Assembly: GCA_001871075.1 (NCBI GenBank)
Contig: MNUP01000035.1
Location: 1 to 11,776, forward strand
Length of the DNA: 11,776 bases
DNA from: Candidatus Desantisbacteria bacterium CG1_02_49_89
GTDB lineage: Bacteria; Desantisbacteria; UBA1551
Reading direction: 5' to 3'
How positions within the stretch are numbered: the first letter of the stretch is position 1; each line of letters starts with the position of its first letter. The translations under genes were made by a program, and so were the position numbers. This document shows positions 714-11,776 of this stretch, piece after piece. The notes below the pieces were generated by a model. The model worked only from the letters and a program-made list of their open reading frames with translations. It did no database searches and was not told the origin of the DNA.

Positions 714-741
714 GATTTGCTCCTTTCCTTTAAATGATGAT

Positions 742-820
742 GTCAGCGATAAATACCCAAATTAATACTGTTTTTTTGTTTTTAATCGCTGAAATTGGTC
801 TTTTATCGCTGTAATCATTA
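742..820. repeat. Inverted short-unit repeat filling the 714-821 spacer (GATTACAGCGAT type)
   Basis: Read in the gene direction, this begins with GATTACAGCGATAAA just after the upstream stop codon and has a second TTTCAGCGATTAAA unit about 22 nt on. The far side carries a single inverted unit. A perfect 10-bp inverted pair, CAGCGATAAA at 744-753 and TTTATCGCTG at 802-811, flanks an AT-rich middle. It is a diverged relative of the elements at 3572-3671, 6160-6259 and 7721-7856. Confidence 0.7.
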
Positions 821-821
821 T

Positions 822-1844
822 TTATTTGATTTTAACCACATGCGCCGGCATCGCGCCTTCCGCTTTGATCTTTGCCGCGAGCTCTTTTGCTTTTTTTTCG
901 TCGGTAAATTTCCCGATGTTAACCCTGTAGAAATTGTCCAGGCCCACGGTAGCCTTCTGGGTCCAGGGGTCAAGGCCCTTCTTCTTAAGCTCCCGGACCT
1001 GCGCTTGAGCGTTCTCCTCGCTGATGAACGAACCTACCTGGACTGTCCATACCTGCCTGTCTAAAGGCCATAGGGCGTGTGTTTCAGCCACCGCTATCTT
1101 TTCAACAGGCACAGCCAGTATTTCAATTGTTTCTTCCGAGATCTCTGCGGTCGAAGGCGGAACGCCCTCTTTTATTTCAACCGTTTCCTCAGGGTGGCGT
1201 ATAAATTTCGCCTCAGAGCTCAACGGGTACCTGCGGCACAGGTCGTCCGCGGTGATCTGCGCTACCCTGTCGTTATCCGTTTTCATATAGCAGAGATATG
1301 TCTGGTAAAGCACGTAGGGTTCTATCTCCCGCGTCGGGAAGATCCACCTGTATTCCCGCAGGGCCCGGATATAATCCTCTTTTTTATAATAAGCGTTGGC
1401 GATCCCGGTCTTTGAAGGGACCACAAACCCAGACCAGGGGTTTGACGAGATGGCCCTGCGGAATTCTTCCACAGCAAGGTCGTATTTGCCGTTTTCCATT
1501 GAGCACAGCCCCATCCTGTACCAGGCAAGGGGGGTCTGCTTGTGCCTTATGAACAGCTTCGTGAATACCTCGTAGTTAAAATGCGCGGTTTCGTATTCCC
1601 CCATCAGGAACCTGGTTTCCGCTATCGCCATATAGGCTTCCCCGGCTTCATCCGTCCCGGGGAATTTTTCAACCACTTTCAGGTATTTTTCTATTGCCAG
1701 CAGTATATTTTCTTCCTTCCTGGCGCTGTCCATCAGGCCCAGTAGTTCAGCGTTCATTCCCGGCACCTCATACTGGGAGAAAGCCGGCAAGGAAGAGGCA
1801 ATTACCGCGAAAAGGATAATGACCGCAATATTTACTTTTTTCAT
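822..1844 (-). CDS. TPR-repeat envelope protein with C-terminal SPOR domain
   Basis: 340 residues. The ATG at 1842-1844 is chosen over an in-frame start 90 nt upstream because GAGGGGG sits just before it and the protein then opens with a clear signal peptide (MKKVNIAVIILFAVIASSLPAFSQ). Residues about 35-215 form TPR-like helical pairs, for example 'AWYRMGLCSMENGKYDLAVEEF' (quoted in part: AWYRMGLCSMENGKYD) and 'GIANAYYKKEDYIRALREY'. A Glu/Pro-rich linker follows at about 220-255. Residues about 265-340 are a SPOR domain ('WTVQVGSFISEENAQAQV' and 'FYRVNIGKFTDEKKAKELA'). SPOR domains bind denuded septal peptidoglycan glycan strands, so a periplasmic role in envelope or division is likely, with the TPR part binding a partner. 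The overall plan resembles BamD/CpoB-like TPR proteins with SPOR added. The specific function is unknown. Confidence 0.85.
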   Translation of the reverse strand: MKKVNIAVIILFAVIASSLPAFSQYEVPGMNAELLGLMDSARKEENILLAIEKYLKVVEKFPGTDEAGEAYMAIAETRFLMGEYETAHFNYEVFTKLFIRHKQTPLAWYRMGLCSMENGKYDLAVEEFRRAISSNPWSGFVVPSKTGIANAYYKKEDYIRALREYRWIFPTREIEPYVLYQTYLCYMKTDNDRVAQITADDLCRRYPLSSEAKFIRHPEETVEIKEGVPPSTAEISEETIEILAVPVEKIAVAETHALWPLDRQVWTVQVGSFISEENAQAQVRELKKKGLDPWTQKATVGLDNFYRVNIGKFTDEKKAKELAAKIKAEGAMPAHVVKIK

Positions 1845-1860
1845 TTCCCCCTCAAAGATT

Positions 1861-1946
1861 ACCACGAAAGCACTCCGCCCGTCTTTCAGCGGGCGAGACT
1901 TCGCCCACCCGGAAAGGATGGGCGAGGAAATCACGAAAACACGAAA
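1861..1946. repeat. CACGAAA-type short repeat with nested GC-rich hairpins
   Basis: ACCACGAAAGCAC on the left and TCACGAAAACACGAAAT on the right are units of one short array, split by a GC-rich block of about 55-60 nt (about 1874-1930). That block holds alternating complementary stretches: CGCCCG 1876-1881 with CGGGCG 1890-1895; GGGCGA 1891-1896 with TCGCCC 1901-1906; CGCCCA 1902-1907 with TGGGCG 1919-1924. Alternative hairpins are therefore possible. The base composition differs sharply from the AT-rich flanks, which suggests insertion. Confidence 0.6.
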
Positions 1947-1953
1947 TAAACAA

Positions 1954-2057
1954 CTTTATAACCTTTATAAACTACCTTTTAACCACGAATTTCCACTAAT
2001 TTACACGAATTATTTTTAACTTTGGAAACTCTGTAAACTATGTAAACTTGTAAGCTT
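1954..2057. repeat. Juxtaposed short-unit arrays (CTTTATAA, CACGAATTT and GTAAACT types)
   Basis: Three different arrays lie end to end. CTTTATAAC/CTTTATAAA occupies 1954-1971 (period 9). 1981-2012 reads as decamers, CACGAATTTC, CACTAATTTA, CACGAATTA, and matches one arm of the inverted element at 4253-4340. 2024-2057 contains GGAAACTCT, GTAAACTAT, GTAAACTT, GTAAGCTT (period 8-9). No coding sequence or clear promoter is seen here. Confidence 0.6.
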
Positions 2058-2073
2058 ATCAGCCTAAAACTCT

Positions 2074-2105
2074 GACACGCTGATACGTTGACACGTTGAT
2101 ACGCT
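2074..2105. repeat. Four tandem octamers, GAYACGYT
   Basis: GACACGCT, GATACGTT, GACACGTT and GATACGCT follow one another without gaps. Differences between units are transitions only. The array lies between the murG stop and the other arrays of this spacer. Confidence 0.75.
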
Positions 2106-2109
2106 TTAA

Positions 2110-2144
2110 CTTGTTACTTGTTACTTGTTACTTGTTACTTGTTG
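2110..2144. repeat. Five tandem heptamers, CTTGTTA, overlapping the 3' end of murG
   Basis: Units start at 2110, 2117, 2124, 2131 and 2138; the last is CTTGTTG. In the gene direction the unit is CAAGTAA. The three units nearest murG are translated as its last residues and the next unit supplies its TAA stop at 2121-2123. Confidence 0.85.
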
Positions 2145-3245
2145 CGCCATTTGCAGTATTATGGCGGCTATCCTTGCCGCTGCGCACGGCCTGCCGAAGT
2201 TCTTGCTCGCCCTGCCCATTTTTTCAAGGATCTCCGGGTTGTTTATAAGGCTCAGTATCTCACAGGCAAGCCTGCGACCGTTCAAGTCGCTGTCCGCTAT
2301 TGTCCGCGAAGCCCCCCTTCCCATAAGCACTTCCGCGTTCAGCATCTGGTGGTTTTCCGCCGCGTAAGGGTAAGGTATAAGGATCGAAGGAAGGCCCCTG
2401 GTTGTTATTTCAGCGATGCTTGTGGCTCCCGCCCTGCATACAACAAGGTCAGCCGCGGCAAGGGCGTCCCAGATATCGTCCATGTATGCATACAGCTCAT
2501 AGCTCATAGCTGATGGCTTAAAACCTGAAGTCAGGGATTTAACGGATTCAAAATCGTCACGGCCGGTAATGTGAAGGATCTGGAGATCGGGTTTATCAAG
2601 GAGTTTAAGGGCTTCGGCGAACACGGTGTTGATCTTTCTCGCTCCCCTGCTGCCGCCGAACACCAGCACCGTTTTTTTATTAAGGTCAAGCCCCAGCTTT
2701 TTCATCGAGGTTTCCCTTTCAGCTGAAAGGACCTCTTCCCTTACAGGATTACCCGTAACCTCTATCTTTTCCTTCGGGAAATATTTGCCTGATACTTCAA
2801 AGGTTATGCCTATGCCTGTTGCCGCCTTACCAAGGATCCTGTTCGTAAGCCCGGCAACCGTGTTCTGCTCGTGTATGAAAACAGGGACCCGGAGGAACCA
2901 GCCTGCCAGAGCGACAGGCCCGCTCACGTAACCGCCTACCCCAACGCACACATCGGGCCTGAATTTATTCACTATCGAAAGCGACTGGAAACACGCGGCA
3001 ACGGCGCTGAAGAAAAACGCGGGGTACGTCAGGACGTTCCGCCTGAGGAGCTTTTTAGCGGAAATACTTTCAAATGGGATCCCGGCTTTTTTCACGACAG
3101 CTTCCTCTATGCCGCCCTTTGTGCCGACAAAAAGGATCTTCACTCCCTTGTTTTTCAGGAGCTGTTCAATGATCGCAAGCGCCGGATACAGGTGCCCGCC
3201 TGTCCCGCCCGCAGCAATTAATATTTTTATTTCCTTATTATTCAT
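2121..3245 (-). CDS. murG: UDP-GlcNAc--lipid I N-acetylglucosaminyltransferase MurG
   Basis: 374 residues, normal for the family (about 355-375). MurG transfers GlcNAc from UDP-GlcNAc to undecaprenyl-PP-MurNAc-pentapeptide at the inner face of the cytoplasmic membrane, making lipid II. Diagnostic motifs are the N-terminal glycine loop 'AAGGTGGHLYPALA' (H18), 'VGVGGYVSGP', 'HEQNTVAGLTNRILG', 'TGNPVRE', 'FGGSRGARKIN' and the donor-site segment 'CRAGATSIAEITTRGLPSI' followed by 'PYPYAAENHQ'. The ATG at 3243-3245 is preferred because it places the glycine loop near the N-terminus as usual; no Shine-Dalgarno precedes it, only a TTTAACC-type repeat. Two parts derive from repeats: residues about 244-251 (see 2494-2514) and the tail VTSNK plus stop. 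No other division/cell-wall cluster genes are adjacent. Confidence 0.96.
   Translation of the reverse strand: MNNKEIKILIAAGGTGGHLYPALAIIEQLLKNKGVKILFVGTKGGIEEAVVKKAGIPFESISAKKLLRRNVLTYPAFFFSAVAACFQSLSIVNKFRPDVCVGVGGYVSGPVALAGWFLRVPVFIHEQNTVAGLTNRILGKAATGIGITFEVSGKYFPKEKIEVTGNPVREEVLSAERETSMKKLGLDLNKKTVLVFGGSRGARKINTVFAEALKLLDKPDLQILHITGRDDFESVKSLTSGFKPSAMSYELYAYMDDIWDALAAADLVVCRAGATSIAEITTRGLPSILIPYPYAAENHQMLNAEVLMGRGASRTIADSDLNGRRLACEILSLINNPEILEKMGRASKNFGRPCAAARIAAIILQMAQQVTSNK
2494..2514. repeat. Three AGCTCAT heptamers inside the murG coding sequence
   Basis: AGCTCAT, AGCTCAT, AGCTGAT at 2494-2514. The 20 nt at 2495-2514 are identical to 4603-4622 in the FmdB/kinase spacer. In murG the units are read in frame as about seven residues (SAMSYEL, residues 245-251), just before the conserved 'MDD' that precedes the UDP-GlcNAc-binding region. 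Confidence 0.75.
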
Positions 3246-3249
3246 TTGT

Positions 3250-3392
3250 TTAAAAGTTAAAAAGGTTAAAGGGGTTAAAGGTTTTAAACCATAATTCGTG
3301 CTAATTCGCGCCGTAGCCCGCCACGAATATTGGCGGGCGGAGGCCCCTGTATTGAGCTGCATAGCAGCTACAGGGGGAAATTCGTGGTTAAA
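3250..3392. repeat. GGTTAAA array plus ATTCGTG half-element with nested GC-rich hairpins
   Basis: 3250-3290 is a run of GTTAAA-containing units (AGTTAAAA, AGGTTAAA, GGGGTTAAA, GGTTTTAAA) that abuts the murG start codon. From about 3290, AATTCGTGCTAATTCG and, at about 3378-3392, AAATTCGTGGTTAAA belong to the decameric element type seen at 4253-4340. Between them lie two GC-rich hairpins: GCCCGCCA 3316-3323 with TGGCGGGC 3331-3338, and CCCCTGTA 3344-3351 with TACAGGGG 3369-3376, the second enclosing AGCTGC/GCAGCT. Confidence 0.65.
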
Positions 3393-3398
3393 TGTATT

Positions 3399-3560
3399 TC
3401 AGGGGGTAAACGATGAAAGCATCGCGATGATCTTCGAGTAATAGCCCTCAAGGGCGCTTTGAAAGAGCGCGTGCGCTCCCAGGGCAGCAAGCCCCACGAA
3501 CGCGGCCGCCATCACGTACTCCACCATCCCCTGTCCTTTTTCCCTGAGTTTTACAATCAT
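3399..3560 (-). CDS. Small Flp/TadE-like prepilin (53 aa)
   Basis: Short ORF from ATG 3558-3560 to TGA 3399-3401; a weak AAAAGG precedes the start. The protein begins MIVKLREKGQGMVEYVMAAA and continues with an unbroken hydrophobic stretch to about residue 34, then an amphipathic tail ending SSFTP. A short basic leader, G9-Q10, Glu at +5 after the predicted cut (Q10-G-M-V-E14-Y15) and a following hydrophobic helix are the class III (Flp-type) prepilin signature, so processing by a TadV/PilD-like prepilin peptidase between G9 and Q10 is likely. No peptidase, TadA ATPase or secretin gene lies in the window. It may be a minor pilin/pseudopilin or a small membrane-anchored protein using the same export route. 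Not confirmed by length-based gene finding, but composition and motif are convincing. Confidence 0.75.
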   Translation of the reverse strand: MIVKLREKGQGMVEYVMAAAFVGLAALGAHALFQSALEGYYSKIIAMLSSFTP

Positions 3561-3571
3561 GTTCGCCTTTT

Positions 3572-3671
3572 GATTACAGTGATTTAAAAAGAGATTACAG
3601 TGATTACTTTTAAAATATCATGATCAGTTTTTCAATATCACCGTAATCATTAGTTAATAATCACCGTAATC
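3572..3671. repeat. 100-nt inverted element, GATTACGGTGATTA type
   Basis: In the gene direction: two GATTACGGTGAT units 23 nt apart, an AT-rich core, then two inverted ATCACTGTAATC units 21 nt apart. It begins directly after the TAA at 3673-3675 and ends 11 nt before the Flp-like start codon. A second copy of exactly the same length is at 6160-6259; others are at 7721-7856 and, diverged, 742-820. Confidence 0.85.
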
Positions 3672-3672
3672 G

Positions 3673-4236
3673 TTATTTAAAGGAAACGCTGGCGGCAAGC
3701 AGGATAAGCAGCGAAATAACGCTTGCACCCAGAGCGAACTTTGTTTTCCTGGTTTCTTTCCCCTGCTCATTAAGCCGGGATATCAGCGCGTCCTGCTGAG
3801 CTGCCGCGTCTGAAAGATTCTTTTCAAGCACTGCCATGTCCTGAGCCACACCTGTTACTATTTCGGAAGGCTCTTTCCGCGCTTCTTCCTTTATAAGCGA
3901 TCCCCGGATCTCCTCAAACAGGCTTTTAAGCGAAGCAGGTTCTCTGTTCGAGACCTTGTAACCGGGGCTGAGCGCCAGTATTTCTCTTATTTCAGCCTTC
4001 ATTTTCTCGTCGTCGCCGAAAGCCCTGTGTATCTTCATCATATAATAGTGCGCTTTTATTTTGTCTTCGTCAGGCGCGTCAGCGGAGTCAGCTATTCCCC
4101 GGAATTCTTTCAGGGCGTCTTCGTAATACGCTTTGTCGAACAGGTCAATGCCTTTCTTCATCTCCTGCGCCGGGCAGGAACTTTTGACACAGATCACCAC
4201 AGATATCACTGTTACCGCTAAGATCAACTTTTTCAT
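3673..4236 (-). CDS. Small exported TPR-like protein with C-terminal membrane anchor
   Basis: 187 residues from ATG 4234-4236; GGGAG 5-6 nt upstream supports this start over one 42 nt earlier. An N-terminal signal sequence (MKKLILAVTVISVVICVKSS, cleavage probably near residue 23) precedes a TPR-like helical region at about 25-110 ('GIDLFDKAYYEDALKEFRG', 'KAHYYMMKIHRAFGDDEKM'). A helical, Glu/Gln-rich stretch at about 120-160 ('AVLEKNLSDAAAQQDALIS') suggests a coiled coil. Residues about 166-184 form a hydrophobic helix, ending VSFK. The protein is likely periplasmic and tethered by its C-terminus. The family is not one I recognise; similar small TPR proteins often accompany PEGA-domain or kinase genes, and a PEGA kinase lies two genes upstream here, but a functional link is only inferred. 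Confidence 0.7.
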   Translation of the reverse strand: MKKLILAVTVISVVICVKSSCPAQEMKKGIDLFDKAYYEDALKEFRGIADSADAPDEDKIKAHYYMMKIHRAFGDDEKMKAEIREILALSPGYKVSNREPASLKSLFEEIRGSLIKEEARKEPSEIVTGVAQDMAVLEKNLSDAAAQQDALISRLNEQGKETRKTKFALGASVISLLILLAASVSFK

Positions 4237-4252
4237 TTTAACTCCCGTTAGC

Positions 4253-4340
4253 AACCACGAATTTACACTAATTTCCACGAATTAAATGAAGTTATTTGCC
4301 AAATTTGCTAATTCGTGAAAATTCGTGATAATTAGTGGTT
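4253..4340. repeat. Inverted decameric element, CACGAATTT type
   Basis: Left arm 4253-4284 and right arm 4309-4340 are each 32 nt and are inverted copies matching at 27 of 32 positions. Each arm is three roughly 10-nt units built on CACGAATTT/CACTAATTT. The core (4285-4308) is AT-rich. The element starts 4 nt after the FmdB stop codon in the gene direction and ends close to the GGGAG of the next gene. Half-elements of the same type are at 1981-2012 and about 3290-3392. Confidence 0.85.
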
Positions 4341-4344
4341 AAAA

Positions 4345-4587
4345 TCAGTTCGAGCAGGTAGAGCATTTGTGCGAGCCGCAGGAACCGCATTTTGAACCGG
4401 AACTTGAGCAGGAGCCTGAAGACGATTTATTATCCGCGCTGTGCGCGCCGTGCACTGCGAACGCGGAAAGCAGTTTGTCTAAATTGCCGCTGCCGCACTT
4501 TTCGCAGTTTATCTTTTCGTCCTTCCTCATTACAAGGGTCTCAAACTCTAACCCGCATTCATTGCACTTAAATTCGCGAATAGGCAT
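4345..4587 (-). CDS. FmdB-family zinc-ribbon protein with Cys/Ser-rich tail
   Basis: 80 residues. The ATG at 4585-4587 is preceded by GGAGG with 7-8 nt spacing; an in-frame ATG seven codons earlier has no such site. The N-terminus MPIREFKCNECGLEFE and the second knuckle 'INCEKCGSGNLDK' give C8, C11, C28 and C31, the single zinc ribbon of the FmdB/CxxC_CxxC_SSSS family. The tail (about 54-80) is rich in Ser, Gly and Cys, with five further cysteines including C67-x-x-C70 and C75-x-x-C78, as is common in this family. The original FmdB was proposed as a regulator of amidase genes, but for most members the role is unknown; nucleic-acid or protein binding through the ribbon is likely. Cytosolic. 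Confidence 0.9.
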   Translation of the reverse strand: MPIREFKCNECGLEFETLVMRKDEKINCEKCGSGNLDKLLSAFAVHGAHSADNKSSSGSCSSSGSKCGSCGSHKCSTCSN

Positions 4588-4602
4588 CACAACCTCCAAA
4601 AT

Positions 4603-4686
4603 GCTCATAGCTCATAGCTGATAGCTCATAGTTAGAACAAAATACTTAAGCAGCTGCAATGAGCCATGAGCTATATGCGGCATTTG
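4603..4686. repeat. Inverted heptamer element, AGCTCAT type, with GCATTTGTT end
   Basis: 4603-4632 is heptameric (GCTCATA, GCTCATA, GCTGATA, GCTCATA). A core containing CTTAAG follows, then inverted units GAGCCATGAGCTAT, and GGCATTTGTT, which touches the kinase stop codon at 4687-4689. The right half matches the element at 9133-9223, including the non-heptameric GCATTTGTT end. The left end lies beside the FmdB Shine-Dalgarno. Confidence 0.8.
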
Positions 4687-6150
4687 TTATTCTAAAGTGA
4701 TTTCTCCGTTCTTGTAAATTATCCGCAAGACAGGCTTGTCGGGCGTTATTTCGACCGCCCGGATCTCGTCTTCATAGTCCGGATGGGTGATCTTTATAGC
4801 GTGCTTCCCGGCTTTGACATTTTTAATGACCCTGCTTCCCTCTCCCTGCGCCGCGTTATCAAAATATATAATTGCGTCCGCCGGGGTCGAGTTAATGTAA
4901 ATTGCCCCGGGTATCTCCTCTTTTTTTGCGGAATAAACCGCCTTGTCTTCTTTAAGGGTGGTAAGCGAAGGGTCCGCGTTGTTCAGGGGAGCCGCGGGTG
5001 CTTTGCTGATCTCACCGGAACTTTCAGCATTTTTCTTTTCCTCCGGGACAGTAACAGCCGCGGGGGCCGCGTTTTCCTCAACTGACTGTTTGGTTCCGGG
5101 TTTATAAAAGAATAAGACCGCTATTATTGTGCACAAAAGCGCTGCGGAAGCGGTTATAATGACCTTCCGGGACATGCCTGATCCTGTTGCCGCTCTGACA
5201 ATTCTGGAGCTGATCACCTGTGTCTGGGCGCCGGCCGTAGGTGACGCGCCGGCAGCGGTGGTATCTTCGGCCGGCTGCAGCAGTGCCGCGGCGTCTTTTT
5301 CGGAAAAAACTATTCCCAGTTCCCTTGCCGCGGCTTCCAGGCCGGTAAGCACTGCCTGCGCTGACCCGTACCTTTTATCCCTGTCTTTTTGAAGGCTTTG
5401 CCTCAGGACCTTCAATATCTCCTGCGGGACCCCTTCAAGTGAACGCAGGTCTGTTTCGATCTCAGCGTTGCGCACTTTCTCCAGTATCTCGAATTCCGAT
5501 TCACCTGCGAACAGCCTGCGGCCGGCAAGCATTTCATACATTACTATACCGGCGGCGAATATGTCCGCGCGCAGGTCCGTGTTTTCCCCTTTCGCCTGTT
5601 CCGGAGAAAGATAGGAAAGTTTGCCTTTCAGCATCCCTACGCTTGTGTTCGAGGGAGCCATGAACGCGGCCCTGGCTATGCCAAAATCGCTGAGCTTCAC
5701 CCTGCCTTCGTTCGAAATAAGGATGTTGGACGGGTTTACATCCCTGTGGATCACGTTCTTTGTGTGCGCGAACTGCAAAGCGTTCAAAACGGATGTTATC
5801 ACAAAAAGAGCGGAAGCAAGCGGTATCCCGCTGGGGGATGTTTCCATTTTTTCCGCCCTGTCCAGCACCTGGGCAAGGGTCCTGCCATCCACGTATTCCA
5901 TGGAGATATAGTAACTGCCGTCCTGCATCCCCATTTCGTATATGCTGACTATCCCGGGATGGTTAAGGTTCGCCGCGATGACCGCTTCGTTGCGGAACAT
6001 CCGGACGAATTCCTTATCCTCGCTTAAGTGGAGTTTTATCATTTTGATGGCGACTATCCTGCGCAGGTCTGTCTGCCTGGCTTTCAGGACATTGGCCATC
6101 CCGCCCCTGCCTATCTCTCCCAGTATCTCGTAGTTCCCGAACTTCTCCAT
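4687..6150 (-). CDS. Membrane-anchored Ser/Thr protein kinase with C-terminal PEGA domain
   Basis: 487 residues from ATG 6148-6150, which places MEKFGNYEILGEIGRGG at the N-terminus as in PknB-type kinases. The kinase domain spans about 7-275: glycine loop GRGGMANV (14-21), VAIK lysine K36, alpha-C Glu E55, HRDVNPSN with catalytic D137, DFG D155, 'LSPEQ' (181-185) in the position of APE, and D196. The usual Lys of HRDLKPEN is replaced by Asn, a change seen in other bacterial HRDxxPSN kinases. A linker leads to a transmembrane helix at about 330-349 ('VIITASAALLCTIIAVLFFY'). The distal part ends in a PEGA domain (about 415-487, 'INSTPADAIIYFDN', 'AGKHAIKITHPDYE'), probably periplasmic. It likely transmits an envelope signal into cytosolic phosphorylation. 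No Shine-Dalgarno is visible; a repeat abuts the start codon. Cognate phosphatase and targets are not in the window. Confidence 0.93.
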   Translation of the reverse strand: MEKFGNYEILGEIGRGGMANVLKARQTDLRRIVAIKMIKLHLSEDKEFVRMFRNEAVIAANLNHPGIVSIYEMGMQDGSYYISMEYVDGRTLAQVLDRAEKMETSPSGIPLASALFVITSVLNALQFAHTKNVIHRDVNPSNILISNEGRVKLSDFGIARAAFMAPSNTSVGMLKGKLSYLSPEQAKGENTDLRADIFAAGIVMYEMLAGRRLFAGESEFEILEKVRNAEIETDLRSLEGVPQEILKVLRQSLQKDRDKRYGSAQAVLTGLEAAARELGIVFSEKDAAALLQPAEDTTAAGASPTAGAQTQVISSRIVRAATGSGMSRKVIITASAALLCTIIAVLFFYKPGTKQSVEENAAPAAVTVPEEKKNAESSGEISKAPAAPLNNADPSLTTLKEDKAVYSAKKEEIPGAIYINSTPADAIIYFDNAAQGEGSRVIKNVKAGKHAIKITHPDYEDEIRAVEITPDKPVLRIIYKNGEITLE

Positions 6151-6159
6151 TTTGATTAT

Positions 6160-6259
6160 GATTACAGTGATTCTAAAAGAGATTACAGTGATTATTTTTA
6201 AATTGCCATACTCAGCTTTTAAATAATCACCGTAATCATTAGTTGAAATCACCGTAATC
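6160..6259. repeat. 100-nt inverted element, GATTACGGTGATTA type (second copy)
   Basis: Exactly 100 nt, like 3572-3671, with the same two outer and two inner units: GATTACAGTGATT at 6160 and 6181 (21-nt period) and ATCACCGTAATC at 6226 and 6248. The arms match the first copy closely, while the core differs but again contains TTTAAA. It begins 7 nt beyond the bL28 stop codon in the gene direction and ends 9 nt before the kinase ATG. Confidence 0.88.
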
Positions 6260-6266
6260 GGTATTA

Positions 6267-6452
6267 TTAAGCCTTGGGCATCTTGCCGGAACGCAGGCAC
6301 TTGGTGCACAGCATAACAGTTTTCACCCTGCCCTTTATCTTGACCTTGGTTTTGTGCAGGTTCGGCTGGAAGGTGCGTTTAAACCCCTGGTGCGAGTGGC
6401 TGATCTGAAATCCCTGCTGGTGTACCTTGCCGCACAGTTCGCATTTTGCCAT
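6267..6452 (-). CDS. rpmB: 50S ribosomal protein bL28, zinc-binding form
   Basis: 61 residues, normal length. Start ATG 6450-6452 has GGAGG 4 nt upstream; an in-frame ATG seven codons earlier would overlap the repeat and lacks support. The sequence has the bL28 pattern: MAKCELCGKVHQQGFQISHS, then 'RTFQPNLHKTKV' and 'TVMLCTKCLRSGKM'. C4, C7, C49 and C52 form the two CxxC pairs of the zinc-binding (C+) paralogue type. The protein sits in the large subunit near the E site. Unlike the common rpmB-rpmG pairing, no bL33 gene is adjacent; the downstream neighbour is the PEGA kinase. Confidence 0.96.
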   Translation of the reverse strand: MAKCELCGKVHQQGFQISHSHQGFKRTFQPNLHKTKVKIKGRVKTVMLCTKCLRSGKMPKA

Positions 6453-6467
6453 AATTCCTCCGGAATT

Positions 6468-6542
6468 CGTCATACGTCATACGTCGTAGGTCGTACGTTT
6501 AAACATTTAAAACGTATGACGTAAGACGTTCGACGCTCGACG
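6468..6542. repeat. Inverted heptamer element, CGTCATA type
   Basis: Left arm 6468-6497 (CGTCATA, CGTCATA, CGTCGTA, GGTCGTA, CG) and right arm 6513-6542 (CGTATGA, CGTAAGA, CGTTCGA, CGCTCGA, CG) are each 30 nt and match as inverted copies at 22 of 30 positions. The 15-nt core is TTTAAACATTTAAAA. The right arm ends exactly at the nagB stop codon and the left arm ends 7-8 nt from the bL28 Shine-Dalgarno, so the element takes up nearly the whole spacer. CG content is high compared with the other elements. Confidence 0.88.
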
Positions 6543-7343
6543 TTATTTAGCCCGTGCCATTTTTTCGAACTTCCTTGTGGCTTTAGCCACAAAATTGTAA
6601 TACTGCTTCCTTTTCAAAAGGGACGCCGCTTCCTCGTCCAGGAACACGTTGACCCTGCGGTGCAGCTGCAGGACGGAAGCGGTAACCTGCGCCGTTACCC
6701 CGCCCTCTATGGTTATGGAGATGACGTTCGCCTTGCTCTTCCCGTTCGCGAGCAGTATTATTTCCTTCGCCTCCATAACGGTGCCCACGCCCATTGTTAT
6801 GGAATAAGTGGGCACTTCGCTCTGGTCTTTGAAGAAACGGGAGTTGTCCTGTATGGTTTCCTCTGTGAGCGTTTTTACCCTTGTGCGGGAGCCCAGCGAT
6901 GAGCCCGGTTCGTTGAACCCTATGTGCCCGTCCCTTCCTATGCCCAGCACCTGCAGGTCGATGCCGCCGAATTTCTTTATGCGGCTCTCGTACCAGTCGC
7001 AGTATTCATCTATGTCGCACGGCTTCGCCATGCCGTTGGGCACGTGGACGTTCTTTATATTGATGTCCAGGTGCTTGAAAAGGTTCTCGCGCATGAAACG
7101 GAAATAGCTCTGTTCGTGGTCCTGCGCGATCCCCAGGTATTCGTCCAGGTTGAACGTAACCACGTGTTTGAAGCTCAGCCCTTCATCCTTGTGCAACCTT
7201 ATGAGTTCTTTGTAAAGCCCCAGCGGCGTGCTGCCGGTCGCAAGGCCCATCACAAGGTTCGGTTTTTTAAGCAGCCTGTCCTTTACCTCAAGCGCGGCTT
7301 CCCTGCTCATTTCTTCGTAATTCTTCAGTATGAATACCTGCAT
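6543..7343 (-). CDS. nagB: Glucosamine-6-phosphate deaminase NagB
   Basis: 266 residues, the same length as the E. coli enzyme. It converts glucosamine-6-phosphate to fructose-6-phosphate and ammonia in the cytosol, linking amino sugars and glycolysis. Motifs: phosphate loop 'LATGSTPLGLYKEL' (34-47), 'TFNLDEYLG' with D67, and 'GIGRDGHIGFNEPGSS' with D138, H140 and E145 as the counterparts of the catalytic Asp/His/Glu set. The C-terminal part carries the family's 'ITIEGGVTAQVTASVLQLH' lid/loop region. ATG 7341-7343 is chosen because GGGGG sits 5 nt upstream; the TTG four codons earlier overlaps that site. With the ACP and GlmU-like genes upstream it suggests an amino-sugar module; those genes are separated by repeat elements, so cotranscription is not certain. 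Confidence 0.96.
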   Translation of the reverse strand: MQVFILKNYEEMSREAALEVKDRLLKKPNLVMGLATGSTPLGLYKELIRLHKDEGLSFKHVVTFNLDEYLGIAQDHEQSYFRFMRENLFKHLDINIKNVHVPNGMAKPCDIDEYCDWYESRIKKFGGIDLQVLGIGRDGHIGFNEPGSSLGSRTRVKTLTEETIQDNSRFFKDQSEVPTYSITMGVGTVMEAKEIILLANGKSKANVISITIEGGVTAQVTASVLQLHRRVNVFLDEEAASLLKRKQYYNFVAKATRKFEKMARAK

Positions 7344-7360
7344 GTCAACCCCCAATCCAA

Positions 7361-7462
7361 TTATGAATTATGAATGATGAATTATGAGTCAAAAACAAGG
7401 ATTTTTTTATTTAAATTTAACTCCATGCAGTTGATTCATAACTCATAATTCATAACTCATAA
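7361..7462. repeat. Inverted heptamer element, TTATGAA type
   Basis: Left arm 7361-7390 and right arm 7433-7462 are each 30 nt, four heptamers plus two bases, and match as inverted copies at 26 of 30 positions. In RNA of the gene sense two of the four differences become G-U pairs. The 42-nt core contains ATTTAAATTTAA. The element ends 3 nt short of the ACP stop codon. Confidence 0.9.
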
Positions 7463-7465
7463 CTA

Positions 7466-7705
7466 TTATTTAAGAAGATTTTGAATAAAGTCGATTGCCT
7501 TGCCGACGGTCTTGACGTCAAGCGCGGCTTCCTCGTCCATGGTTATGTCGAACTCCTGCTCGAACGCCGCCACGAGCTCAAGGCTCTGTATGGATTCCGC
7601 CCCGAGGTCCTTTACGAAGTCAGACTCGTTTTTGATCTTTTCGGGCTGGACTTTCAGCTGTTTTGACACCACCTTCTTCACCCTTTCCTCAACGCTTCCT
7701 TCCAT
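7466..7705 (-). CDS. Acyl carrier protein
   Basis: 79 residues; ATG 7703-7705 with GGAGG 5 nt upstream. It has the four-helix carrier-protein pattern: MEGSVEERVKKVVSKQLKV, 'NESDFVKDLGAESIQSLELV' and 'EEAALDVKTVGKAIDFIQ'. The phosphopantetheine site is S38 in E37-S38-I39, where the usual motif is DSL. The acidic helix II (ELVAAFEQEFDITMDEEA) that docks fatty-acid enzymes is kept. It probably carries acyl chains as the 4'-phosphopantetheine thioester. No fab genes adjoin it; it lies between nagB and a GlmU-like gene, so it may be the housekeeping ACP placed apart or a specialised carrier for acylated amino sugars. The second option is inference only. Confidence 0.93.
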   Translation of the reverse strand: MEGSVEERVKKVVSKQLKVQPEKIKNESDFVKDLGAESIQSLELVAAFEQEFDITMDEEAALDVKTVGKAIDFIQNLLK

Positions 7706-7720
7706 TTTTCCTCCACTTGG

Positions 7721-7856
7721 GATTACGGTGATTATAACTGAGATTACGGTGATTATCTAAATTTAAATAATCGCTGTCCCTAAAGGACCCCTGCGTCTTG
7801 TCCCGATTCTTATATCGGGACTGCAGGGGTAATCATCTTTCTAAATCACTGTAATC
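7721..7856. repeat. GATTACGGTGATTA-type inverted element carrying a nested hairpin insertion
   Basis: Left arm: GATTACGGTGATTA at 7721 and 7742 (21-nt period). Right arm: ATCACTGTAATC at 7845-7856 and a second unit interrupted after TAATCGCT (7767-7774) that resumes as GTAATC at 7829. Without the interruption the element is 82 nt with core TTTAAATTTA. It fills the spacer from 15 nt upstream of the ACP start to 3 nt from the stop codon of the GlmU-like gene. Confidence 0.85.
7775..7828. repeat. 54-nt GC-rich double-hairpin insertion
   Basis: Contains two stems: inner GTCCCGAT 7800-7807 with ATCGGGAC 7814-7821 (6-nt loop), and outer ACCCCTGC 7787-7794 with GCAGGGGT 7823-7830, plus a small GTCC/GGAC pair at 7775-7788. 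Removing it restores a contiguous CGCTGTAATC unit in the host repeat. GT is present at both junctions, so it could be a 2-bp duplication or microhomology. The stem could act as a bidirectional terminator, but no T-tract follows on either strand. Confidence 0.7.
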
Positions 7857-7859
7857 AGT

Positions 7860-9116
7860 TTATTGCATTCTCGACTTGCGGACTGCTTCTTCGCGGTCAT
7901 CTTTGGTAATTTCATGCACGTGCTTCAGGAGCGCGATATCCTCTTCCGCCAGGCTGACGCCCCTTCTTGACATCGCGGCCCTGGCGGTTTCTGTCTGCAT
8001 CCTGAACCCGTAGCCTTTTGAAAACGCGTTATTCAAAAACCAGCAGTAGGAAGGGATGTATTTCGGCGCCACTCCCCCGCTTCCCACAACATTGCACATA
8101 ATGCCTATCACCGTGCCGGTGTTCAGGAGCGTGCCGATGCTTGTTTTGGTGTGGTCCCCGATAAACGAGCCCACCTTGGTGCTTCCGGAATCCACGGCCG
8201 TGTTTTTCACGTGCACGGAAACAGAGCTGTAGTCATTTTTCAGGTCGCTGTTCGTGGTTAGCGCGCCAAGGTTCACCCATTCGCACACGTAGGCGTGGCC
8301 CAGGAACCCGTCGTGGTACTTGTTGGAATAGGCGTGGATGATGGTTTCCTCCACTTCGCCGCCGACCCTGCACACAGGCCCGATGGATGTCCCTTCCCTT
8401 ATCCTGGACGCTCCCATTATCTGCGAGTTCCTGCCCAGGTACATAGGCCCTTCTATCCGGGAAAAAGGAAAGATCTCAGAGCTTTCATCAAGGATGATCG
8501 GTCCCCTGGTCGTGTCCAGGACCACAAAAGGATGCACCTTCGCGCCGGGAGCGACCCGTATCCTGTTCTCGTCGCCGTACACACAGGCAAGTTTGTGTAT
8601 CTCGCCTTTGACAGACCCTCCACCGGATGCCATGAAGTCATCCTCTATCGCTTTCGGGTTGTAATTTACAAGGTCCCACGGAAAGGATATGACAGGGATA
8701 TCCGTTTCTTTTGCCGGGACCGCATGTTTAATTGACTCGAGAAAGATCCAGATATTACCGGCGGCTTTTGACGCTTTTTCTTTTTTAAGCCTTGCGAAAA
8801 CCACGGAATCGCTTTTTATCCCTATTTCTTCTTCCCCGGTAAGCGGCGGCGCCTTCCCTTCCAGGACAAGCATCCTGCCGTTAATGAAAAGGATGTCGTC
8901 GTTAATCGCACCTTCGTTGTTCGCTCCGGCAAACCTTTTGCCGAAAACCGGGACCAGTTCTTCCCGCATCCTGTAAATGATCTCGCATTTCCCGTAAAAC
9001 CTCGCTATTTTCTCCCAGAGCTTTGTCGCCCCGCATCTCAGCTCGAAAACCGGGCGCAGGAACGTAAGCGGGTAAAGCTGGTCGATCTTGTCGTCCTCGA
9101 ATACGCAGACTTTCAT
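7860..9116 (-). CDS. Alternative GlmU-like sugar nucleotidyltransferase/acetyltransferase
   Basis: 418 residues from ATG 9114-9116, with GGGGGG just upstream; the ATG four codons earlier overlaps that site. The N-terminus MKVCVFEDDKIDQLYPLTFL followed by 'RPVFELRCGATKLWEKI' is the signature of the alternative bacterial GlmU family, whose N-terminal half is a diverged nucleotidyltransferase fold. The C-terminal half (about 185-370) is a left-handed beta-helix of hexapeptide repeats with the family block 'SNKYHDGFLGHAYV', 'EWVNLGALTTNSDLKNDY' and 'GDHTKTSIGTLLNTGTVIG'. Such proteins are predicted to make UDP-GlcNAc from glucosamine-1-phosphate, or a related nucleotide sugar, in the cytosol. Proximity to nagB and murG, which respectively drain and consume this route, fits. 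The product sugar is not proven by the sequence. Confidence 0.9.
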   Translation of the reverse strand: MKVCVFEDDKIDQLYPLTFLRPVFELRCGATKLWEKIARFYGKCEIIYRMREELVPVFGKRFAGANNEGAINDDILFINGRMLVLEGKAPPLTGEEEIGIKSDSVVFARLKKEKASKAAGNIWIFLESIKHAVPAKETDIPVISFPWDLVNYNPKAIEDDFMASGGGSVKGEIHKLACVYGDENRIRVAPGAKVHPFVVLDTTRGPIILDESSEIFPFSRIEGPMYLGRNSQIMGASRIREGTSIGPVCRVGGEVEETIIHAYSNKYHDGFLGHAYVCEWVNLGALTTNSDLKNDYSSVSVHVKNTAVDSGSTKVGSFIGDHTKTSIGTLLNTGTVIGIMCNVVGSGGVAPKYIPSYCWFLNNAFSKGYGFRMQTETARAAMSRRGVSLAEEDIALLKHVHEITKDDREEAVRKSRMQ

Positions 9117-9132
9117 TAAACCCCCCATTTCG

Positions 9133-9223
9133 CATATGGCTAATGGCGTATGGCAACTGCTTAAGGGTCTGGATTCATATCATAGGTTGTAAGCCATGAG
9201 CCATGAGCTATTGAGCGCATTTG
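9133..9223. repeat. Inverted heptamer element, ATGGCTA/GCCATGA type, with GCATTTGTT end
   Basis: Left arm 9133-9155 has ATATGGC, TAATGGC, GTATGGC. Right arm about 9187-9218 has GCCATGA, GCCATGA, GCTATTGA. The core includes CTTAAG. The right end GCGCATTTGTT lies a few bases from the PorV-like stop codon (9229-9231), just as GGCATTTGTT does next to the kinase stop at 4687. ATGAGCCATGAGCTAT is shared exactly with the element at 4603-4686. Confidence 0.8.
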
Positions 9224-9228
9224 TTCTT

Positions 9229-10158: not shown

Positions 10159-10187
10159 TTTATCTCCTTAATTTATAGTGTTTGAGA

Positions 10188-11776
10188 CTACCGGACCATA
10201 CTTATCTTACCGCTTTTTCTTTCCCCGTTCGCGTTGGTAATAATGTATATGTAGGTGCCGCTGGCAAGATCAGCGCCATTCTGGTTAACGCCCTTCCAGA
10301 GGAAGAACCCGTCCCCGTCAGTTTCCTCGCCTTCATATACGGGTTCGCCCATCATAGTATAGATACGTATCGTGGCTTTTGACGTAAGGCCGGCGAAAGT
10401 TATATCAGTGCTGTCAAGGGAGGTCCCGCTTCCCGGGCGCCAGGGATTAGGGTACACCTTCGCGTCCTTAAGGGTTGAAGAAACAGATTCCTTCATAAGT
10501 ATGGAATAAACGGAAAAATGCCTTGACTGCGTTGTGAGCTCTTTGCCGTTCTTGTCAAGCGTGAAGGAAACCTTGTCCCAGGTTTTCGCAACTTCGTTAA
10601 AAAGATACAGGCCCAGGTTTTCAACGGGGATGCTTGTCCCGTCGACAATTCCGTCATTATCGCTGTCCTGGAACGGTATCCTTAACGTAACAGGCAGCAC
10701 AAAGTTCTGAGTGAAACCTTCGCCGCTTGATGATCTGAACGCAGAGAACTCGCGCTTTATGCCTGTAAGCCTGTGCGCGCCCGCCTTGCTGTCAGCCTCA
10801 AGCAGGGAGTCCGCGTTGACAGCTATGGGCTGCGCCTGGGGGTCTGTCGAGATCGCCACAACAAGGTCAGAGCCAAGCGCTCCCGGATTTGCGTCCGCTA
10901 TTGTTTTGCTGTCCTCCCCTGTTACGAAACCGCCTGCCGCGCTTGCTATGAGTTTTGCCGCGGGGAGCGCGTTTACCTTCTGGCAGTATAAGTTCCAGTC
11001 TGCCGCGTTCCTATTATCGCACCATACCGTAAAAAAGCCTCCGCCGCAATCGGTTAACGCGACCGGCGCGGACTTATCGTTCGCTATAACGCAGAGTGTT
11101 TCGCCTTTCGCGGTCCATACCGAATTTAAAGAACTGTTAATGTGCTGGGCGTACAGGTTGTAGTTACCTTTGCGGTTGTCCCTCCAGGCAGCGAACGCCC
11201 CGCCAAGGCCATCATTGGCAACCGATACACCCTGGCTCATCAAATGATCGTATAGCGTTATCCCTGAGCCGGATGCCAGCAGGCTGCCTGACGCGTTAAC
11301 TCCCTGCAGCATGGCGTTGGTTCCGTCCGTCCATATTATCCAGCTCCCGCCTTTGCCGTCCGCGCATATGGACCAGTTGTCGTTGGTTAAGGCGCCTGAA
11401 ATAAGTATCCCGTTGTTCGTCCACTTCATTATTCCGTTGCCGTCAAATCTCTGGGTGTAAACACAGCTAGCGCCTCCTGAGCGGCGGTCGCGCCAGGCTG
11501 TGATCGCTCCTCCTGAACCGTCAGAGATAACCGAGAGCGCCCTGCGCCAGTTCACCTCAACGCATACCGTAATGCCGTTTGTGGCCCATTTGGTATCGCC
11601 GTTCGCGTTAAAACTTTGCGCGTAAACATCGCAGTCGTGCACGCGCGAGTCCATCCATGCCGCGATCACCCCGCCCGCTCCGTCAGGCGCAATACCCATG
11701 TCGTTCTGGTAACCCGTGAACGTGCAGACAGTTTCCCCATTCTTTGTCCATAGCATTGTGCCGCTGGGGTCAACTC
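10188..11776 (-). CDS. Secreted repeat protein with FlgD-like C-terminal domain (5' end outside window)
   Basis: The frame is open through the window edge (codons for VDPSGT precede the ATG at 11754-11756), so the start lies upstream; 528 residues are visible. The first part has about five imperfect repeats of roughly 50-60 residues with the pattern DGxGGAxxAWRDxR...YAQ...G...W..NG, for example 'ISDGSGGAITAWRDRRSGG' and 'NDGLGGAFAAWRDNRKGN'; these probably form beta-propeller-like or sandwich units. A middle region has an Asp-rich possible calcium loop, DSDNDGIVDG, within a domain ending 'SRHFSVYSILM'. The C-terminus, 'DAKVYPNPWRPGSG' to 'GTYIYIITNANGERKSGKIS', is a FlgD-like/type A sorting-domain-like Ig fold. 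The protein is likely exported to the cell surface or released, with the adjacent PorV-like barrel as a candidate partner. The true ligand or enzymatic activity, if any, is unknown. Confidence 0.85.
   Translation of the reverse strand, partial: VDPSGTMLWTKNGETVCTFTGYQNDMGIAPDGAGGVIAAWMDSRVHDCDVYAQSFNANGDTKWATNGITVCVEVNWRRALSVISDGSGGAITAWRDRRSGGASCVYTQRFDGNGIMKWTNNGILISGALTNDNWSICADGKGGSWIIWTDGTNAMLQGVNASGSLLASGSGITLYDHLMSQGVSVANDGLGGAFAAWRDNRKGNYNLYAQHINSSLNSVWTAKGETLCVIANDKSAPVALTDCGGGFFTVWCDNRNAADWNLYCQKVNALPAAKLIASAAGGFVTGEDSKTIADANPGALGSDLVVAISTDPQAQPIAVNADSLLEADSKAGAHRLTGIKREFSAFRSSSGEGFTQNFVLPVTLRIPFQDSDNDGIVDGTSIPVENLGLYLFNEVAKTWDKVSFTLDKNGKELTTQSRHFSVYSILMKESVSSTLKDAKVYPNPWRPGSGTSLDSTDITFAGLTSKATIRIYTMMGEPVYEGEETDGDGFFLWKGVNQNGADLASGTYIYIITNANGERKSGKISMVR

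Follow-up and report, generated by a model that had tools for sequence, protein, structure and literature searches.

Inverted arrays of short units in the intergenic spacers of a Candidatus Desantisbacteria genome: probable spread as whole palindromic elements

What occupies the space between the genes of an operon-like run, when one spacer after another repeats the same architecture in what seems to be a different sequence? The question is raised by an 11,776-nt stretch of Candidatus Desantisbacteria bacterium CG1_02_49_89 (MNUP01000035.1; hereafter, the window), which is the whole of contig C106 in a metagenome-assembled genome, G000 (2.48 Mb, 93.5% complete). The main genes of the window all lie on the minus strand, and 11 of the 12 spacers separating these co-directional genes carry arrays of short units, mostly inverted. 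This was the starting point of a preliminary description, and it was borne out when the tandem arrays were listed with Tandem Repeats Finder and the inverted arms were scored without gaps. The same description went on to suggest that each array had been generated at its own locus. We instead favor, with a probability of roughly 0.6, the reading that the spacers were colonized by several dozen families of short, non-autonomous palindromic repeats, similar to ERIC, BOX and miniature inverted-repeat transposable elements (MITEs), which spread whole.

Arrays were confirmed to be a real, genome-wide feature of G000. We sampled 60 stretches (0.80 Mb, about one-third of the genome), used a home-made hexamer caller to predict genes and kept spacers of 40-400 nt (n = 384), certain long 'spacers' of which contain genes, because the caller missed some RAYT genes. 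Arrays with a period of 7-10 nt (328 in all) were carried by 225 of the 384 spacers, so that the pattern extends well beyond the window; none appeared in mononucleotide-shuffled G000 spacers, and 1% of coding segments (165 nt each) contained one. A tandem score of at least 12 was reached by 60% of the spacers and by 0% of dinucleotide shuffles, and the inverted-arm threshold by 26% and 0.4%, respectively. Elsewhere, the same tandem score was found in 9% of 91 spacers of G001, the sole relative compared, which belongs to the same order as G000 and was the only other genome of its phylum in the comparison; in 12% over 80 Bacteroidota loci; in 0 of 19 spacers from 50 kb of E. coli K-12; and in 55% of 20 spacers from an unrelated genome, G094.

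The placement and cores of the arrays also agree with what had been noticed in the window. In 49% of the spacers with arrays, the first array begins no more than 9 nt from the stop codon; the last array stops a median of 24 nt ahead of the next start, as expected from the earlier remark that arrays start 0-9 nt past a stop and end near the next start. TTTAAA, which had been picked out in the AT-rich cores, is present in 43 of 153 loops between inverted arrays, versus 10.8 expected. Most elements are located downstream of one gene's stop codon and upstream of the Shine-Dalgarno sequence of the following gene, and some of them provide that stop codon; the corresponding compact junctions of G001 lack them. 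The stop codon falls inside an array unit at 12 genes; four of these have a G001 match, and in the alignments their C-termini agree to within four residues.

When units were collapsed at one mismatch, the 0.8-Mb sample yielded 69 unit families, 30 with at least three arrays and 29 with a single array; the commonest were AATTATG (41 arrays), AACGTGTC (29), ACGACGT (22) and AAACTCTGT (22). Across the whole of G000, regular expressions, which give counts of copies that were not aligned, found 117 unit pairs of family A (GATTACRGTGATT, 21-23 nt period) and 121 triple-unit matches of family B (TTATGAR), with none of either in G001. Inverted pairs always face inward ('><': 17 in family A, 18 in B, six in D, five in E and four in F) and never outward ('<>'), and many arrays are single-armed. 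Set side by side, full family B elements have in common the core CAACnGCAAGGAATTTATTTAAA with matching CCTTGTTGTTGA, and their variant unit, ATGATGA, occupies position -2 or -3 of one arm and is found in the opposite arm only in copies that look turned around. Arm identity is 84.7% within one element versus 86.1% between different elements. In family A, the unit centre is A in one arm and G in the other in 63 of 67 cross-arm pairs. The fixed positions of the variant unit, an arm identity no higher within elements than between them, and the A/G asymmetry argue for whole-element copying; local fold-back copying would predict the opposite arm pattern. Because copies within a family share their core, unit order and left/right asymmetry, these families have been dispersed as entire elements, in either orientation.

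The families are also modular. The core CAACnnCAAGGAaTTTTATTtAAA is common to family B, with arms of ATTATGA 7-mers, and to family E, with arms of CGTGTCAA 8-mers; the core CAACnnCAAGGAaTTTTAT also occurs with the CGTRTCAR 8-mer arms of family E, a core word being found in 12 of 33 spacers of this family, whereas roughly 10% of untagged spacers contain one; and GATCCTG-type heptamers accompany cores of a similar kind, GAAGGAATT. Judged from such comparisons, arms and core are separable. The idea of different sequences on a shared architecture therefore holds in a modified form: inward-facing arrays, an AT-rich core and a site running from stop codon to Shine-Dalgarno sequence are indeed shared, and in families B and E different arms surround one core. 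GC-rich, REP-like hairpins are nested within array cores, in families B and E often at a matching point of the core; examples lie at about 7775-7832 of the window and in stretches L012, L019, L021, L058, L062 and L071.

Comparison with G001 bears on the direction of change. The ten-gene order of the window is kept in G001, where several of the junctions overlap or are shorter than 20 nt. At 39 conserved, co-directional adjacent gene pairs, spacers have a median length of 125 nt in G000 but of 15 nt in the relative (p = 4e-7, Wilcoxon test), and an array score of at least 10 is reached at 74% of these junctions in G000 versus 5% in G001. Of the 23 G001 junctions no longer than 25 nt, 20 exceed 40 nt in G000. 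Because the junctions of G001 are compact and mostly array-free, the comparison points to gain of arrays in G000 as a simpler reading than their loss in G001, and ordinary point divergence is less fitting.

These observations are consistent with colonization by mobile palindromic repeats, and the elements have the classical MITE traits of being short and non-autonomous, with terminal inverted repeats and dispersed copies. Each spans about 75-140 bp and has an AT-rich core, often with TTTAAA, enclosed by two inward arrays whose units measure 7-10 nt, or 21-23 nt in family A. They would have spread in this lineage through insertion or template copying, with the survivors being those insertions that broke no gene; recombination of arms and cores could then yield families that have a core in common but differ in their arms, and RAYT-type REP hairpins would have been acquired by the elements later. 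The tandem units may be sites for the moving agent or for a host DNA-binding protein. Since they are located between co-directional genes, the arrays are probably transcribed, and the elements would then be expected to place long hairpins in polycistronic mRNA, although selection for hairpins was not detected.

Several points weigh against this account. That arrays were gained in G000 rather than lost in G001 is inferred from the tight junctions of G001, a relative at the level of order. No target-site duplications were found (family A, 1.9 versus 2.5 permuted; family B, 3.0 versus 2.4 permuted), and no transposase was enclosed by family arms in the sampled third of the genome, where movers other than RAYT and reverse transcriptase were not systematically searched for. 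Further, many arrays have one arm only, and the single arms of family A are oriented relative to the gene 38 to 8 (38/46, p = 9e-6), a bias unexpected under neutral insertion. The two genes that do lie between inward arms of the same family were considered as candidates and set aside; by sequence they appear ABC-transporter ATPase-like and GyrI-like, respectively, and not transposase-like. Viral contigs were likewise discarded as carriers of family A, with one contig only, bearing a simple direct array. At 10219-10294, the IMG/VR contig L252 holds a lengthy array of AATCACTGTAATC units in direct orientation.

The arrays might instead be functional sites for host regulators, whether IHF/HU-like DNA benders or an RNA-binding translational regulator, with the constant unit positions maintained by selection. 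We regard this as unlikely, although several observations favor it. Unit positions are unequally conserved; G000 has three HU/IHF-type genes versus one in G001; and family E single arms resemble those of family A in pointing one way in 26 of 35 cases (p = 0.006, uncorrected for ten families), the single-arm orientation of these two families being the only sign of function. In addition, several families of paired, opposite-strand 7-8-mer arrays in Geobacter metallireducens are read as IHF/HU sites (Aklujkar 2009; PMC2700814), and TAACTGA arrays of Beggiatoaceae point at start codons (MacGregor 2015; PMC4679880). However, dozens of unrelated unit families would require dozens of regulators, and no significant bias in orientation is seen in families B, C, D, I and J. 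Action at the level of RNA finds no support either: predicted folds are stable in nine of the eleven array spacers of the window (z = -3.0 to -7.7), but sense and antisense stabilities over 106 elements divide 53:53, and G.U mismatches (153) are not in excess of A.C (175). The hairpin selection invoked in the preliminary description was rejected because of this equality and the lack of a G.U excess.

That description had also attributed the arrays to a birth of each at its own locus, by replication slippage, fold-back copying or other local templating, followed by selection of hairpins. The variation of unit sequences between families, the inverted arms, and the 29 of 69 families seen once in the sample all fit such an origin, which nevertheless seems to us quite improbable. 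It does not account for the recurrence of 30 families, nor for elements that have a core in common, a constant order of units and arms that differ from left to right, nor for arms that are no more alike within an element than between elements, and the RNA-strand bias was not found. Local generation is contradicted for families A and B, and what room remains for it lies among the singleton families.

An origin through RAYT (Y1) transposases, as with REP and BIME, is scarcely credible and largely refuted already: ten Y1_Tnp matches in G000 and the GC-rich hairpins nested in array cores speak for it, but the repeats on either side of the readable RAYT genes are GC-rich ones, for example GTAACTCAGGGCTTTAGCCCTGA or GGGGACGGTTC, instead of AT-rich arrays, G001 has RAYTs and these REPs with almost no short-unit arrays, and G094 has arrays with no Y1_Tnp match. 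One type of RAYT-flanking GC-rich palindrome (GTAACTCAGG...) is common to G000 and G001. Reverse transcriptase was also rejected as a generator, there being one partial match in G000 (G000:C119:37201-37527, close to a contig end) and none in G094. Both candidates named in the preliminary description therefore look unlikely, given that RAYT genes sit in other repeats and that G001 and G094 show the opposite pattern from that expected. The spacers of G094 (1.4 Mb, 93% complete) are filled with inverted short-unit arrays, for example AACAGTTTACAGTAACCAG and GGTTTACGGTTAACGG (L246, L247), and its part in the argument presumes that these are of the same kind as those of G000. Two similar RAYT genes of 160 amino acids lie about 2 kb apart in L042 (on the reverse complement, 6201-6683 and 8227-8709), and each is surrounded by hairpins of the GTAACTCAGGGCTTTAGCCCTGA type in tandem. 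The RAYT genes of L041 and L039 are bounded by inverted GGGACAG/CTGTCCC ends, unlike the arrays, and others by GGGGACGGTTC ends.

Within the window, Tandem Repeats Finder listed arrays with periods of 7-10 and 21-23 nt at 1983-2143, 2494-2511, 3248-3281, 3571-3680, 4255-4337, 4603-4631, 6468-6544, 7359-7464 and 9192-9208; no Rfam model matched the window. The claim that the array sequences differ from spacer to spacer stands between families only, since the GATTACRGTGATT element recurs in three window spacers (at 3572, 6160 and 7721), the CACGAATTT element in at least two, and AGCTCAT-like units in at least two. Family A elements occupy spacer 3561..3672, with GATTACAGTGATT twice at 3572-3605, an AT core and ATCACCGTAATC twice at about 3637-3672; spacer 6151..6266, with an A-type arm at 6160-6193 and a G-type arm at 6225-6259 (fold z = -7.7; ungapped inverted arms 6181-6197/6221-6237, 94%); and spacer 7706..7859, with arms at 7721-7754 and about 7835-7857 (z = -7.7), where the nested CCCCTGC..GCAGGGG hairpin mentioned above interrupts the distal arm and core. 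A degenerate, family A-like inverted array of TTATCGCTG/CAGCGATAA units fills spacer 714..821 (arms 731-763/792-824, 33 nt, 79%; z = -4.1). The family B element, of TTATGAR heptamers, lies in spacer 7344..7465 at 7359-7389 and 7434-7464, around the core CAAGGA..TTTAAA..TGCATGG (z = -6.8; ungapped arms 7361-7382/7434-7455, 91%), and the family C element, of CGTCATA/ACGTCNN heptamers, in spacer 6453..6542 at 6468-6498 and 6508-6544 (z = -4.1; ungapped arms 6468-6484/6512-6528, 94%).

Family D is represented by an element of CACGAATTT 10-mers in spacer 4237..4344 (arms 4253-4284/4309-4340, 32 nt, 84%; z = -5.2), and its ends (AATTCGTG/CACGAATT) enclose a GC-rich hairpin in spacer 3246..3398, which also carries GTTAAAGGG 9-mers at 3248-3281 (z = -4.9). 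Spacer 1845..2120 is composite, with CACGAATTT 10-mers at 1983-2011, GTAAACTTT-type 9-mers at 2018-2057, ACGCTGATACGTTGAC 8-mers at 2073-2103 and ACTTGTT 7-mers at 2109-2143. An element of AGCTCAT heptamers lies in spacer 4588..4686 (arms 4603-4631 and 4656-4674). CATATGG/CATTAGC/AGCCATG heptamers are found in spacer 9117..9228, at 9192-9208 and in the flanks, with a fold that is not unusually stable (z = +0.3). The single array-free spacer is the 29-nt one at 10159..10187. The operon-like run common to G001, delimited by Pfam matches and collinearity, occupies 2121..9116 on the minus strand and includes genes for a sugar nucleotidyl transferase, an ACP-like protein, a member of the glucosamine-6-P isomerase family, L28, a protein kinase with PEGA, and Zn-ribbon and TPR-like proteins, as well as murG; it extends beyond murG to a SPOR/TPR gene (822-1844) and a gene at 3-713. 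The murG reading frame holds 2.6 copies of AGCTCAT (2490-2515), and the spacer array at 4603-4631 belongs to this unit family too. That the murG array is a coding insertion was rejected, as the G001 murG loop is equally long there.

Among mobile repeats, ERIC and BOX elements are by analogy the nearest parallels. ERIC and other prokaryotic MITEs are likewise short palindromes, mostly intergenic and sometimes in operons or gene 3' ends, with tens to hundreds of copies (review, PMC10969869); the G000 elements differ in having no detectable target-site duplication or parental transposon, in having tandem arrays as arms, and in the coexistence of dozens of families. Pneumococcal BOX elements share modular ends with variable tandem inner modules, a stem-loop, and the habit of pneumococcal repeats of inserting into each other; however, the tandem module is central in BOX, whereas in G000 both arms, of family-dependent sequence, flank the core (PMC3049150). 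REP, BIME and REPIN sequences mobilized with RAYT are also palindromic, extragenic and dispersed, and G000 has both REP-like hairpins and RAYT genes (PMC3116915, PMC2817692); its arrays, in contrast, are AT-rich multi-unit arms that do not adjoin RAYT genes, and those of G094 occur with no RAYT detected.

Other short-unit arrays have been described. Those of G. metallireducens (consensus units GTTGCTYN, TCTCCGTS and MTYCTGA), termed 'global regulator binding sites', are similar in forming several families per genome of three to five tandem, intergenic 7-8-nt units, in opposite-strand pairs at variable distance, and the sister species G. sulfurreducens is without them (PMC2700814). The families given there comprise 16-49 sequences each, whereas in G000 about 60% of the spacers sampled carry arrays, from 69 unit families in all, and there is in addition whole-element homology, a core common to families with different arms, and a widening of operon junctions that are otherwise compact. 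In Beggiatoaceae, Cyanobacteria and Bacteroidetes, TAACTGA arrays are intergenic heptamers, patchy in distant phyla and with no evident mobilizer; they differ in consisting of one unit in start-codon-oriented direct repeats, with a single inverted case, whereas G000 has many units, often in inverted pairs with a core (PMC4679880). The TAACTGA unit is absent from the 30 commonest families of G000. Of 385 genomes, D-like unit patterns were found in nine others and B patterns in 14, versus one and three for reversed-pattern controls, which are weak controls; common descent across phyla is not shown, because most B matches outside G000 are plain direct arrays with no core. A literature search found no paper on the arrays of this lineage. 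It is possible, though on balance we lean against it, that the elements belong to a kind not yet described, modular palindromes whose arrayed arms can be exchanged on a common core, and that this kind has spread among operon junctions of unrelated lineages (at least G000 and G094) without RAYT or reverse transcriptase, re-opening compact operons.

Palindromic intergenic repeats usually fall into a handful of families per genome and can be linked to a transposase that is known or to an ancient insertion sequence. The contrast with G000, where about 60% of sampled spacers bear arrays of dozens of families and RAYT and reverse transcriptase look unlikely, is what gives this genome its interest, and its conserved operon junctions can be compared with those of a compact, mostly array-free relative. 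Two old questions are thereby made testable: what moves ERIC- and BOX-like elements, and how operons tolerate hairpin inserts of about 100 nt at nearly every junction.

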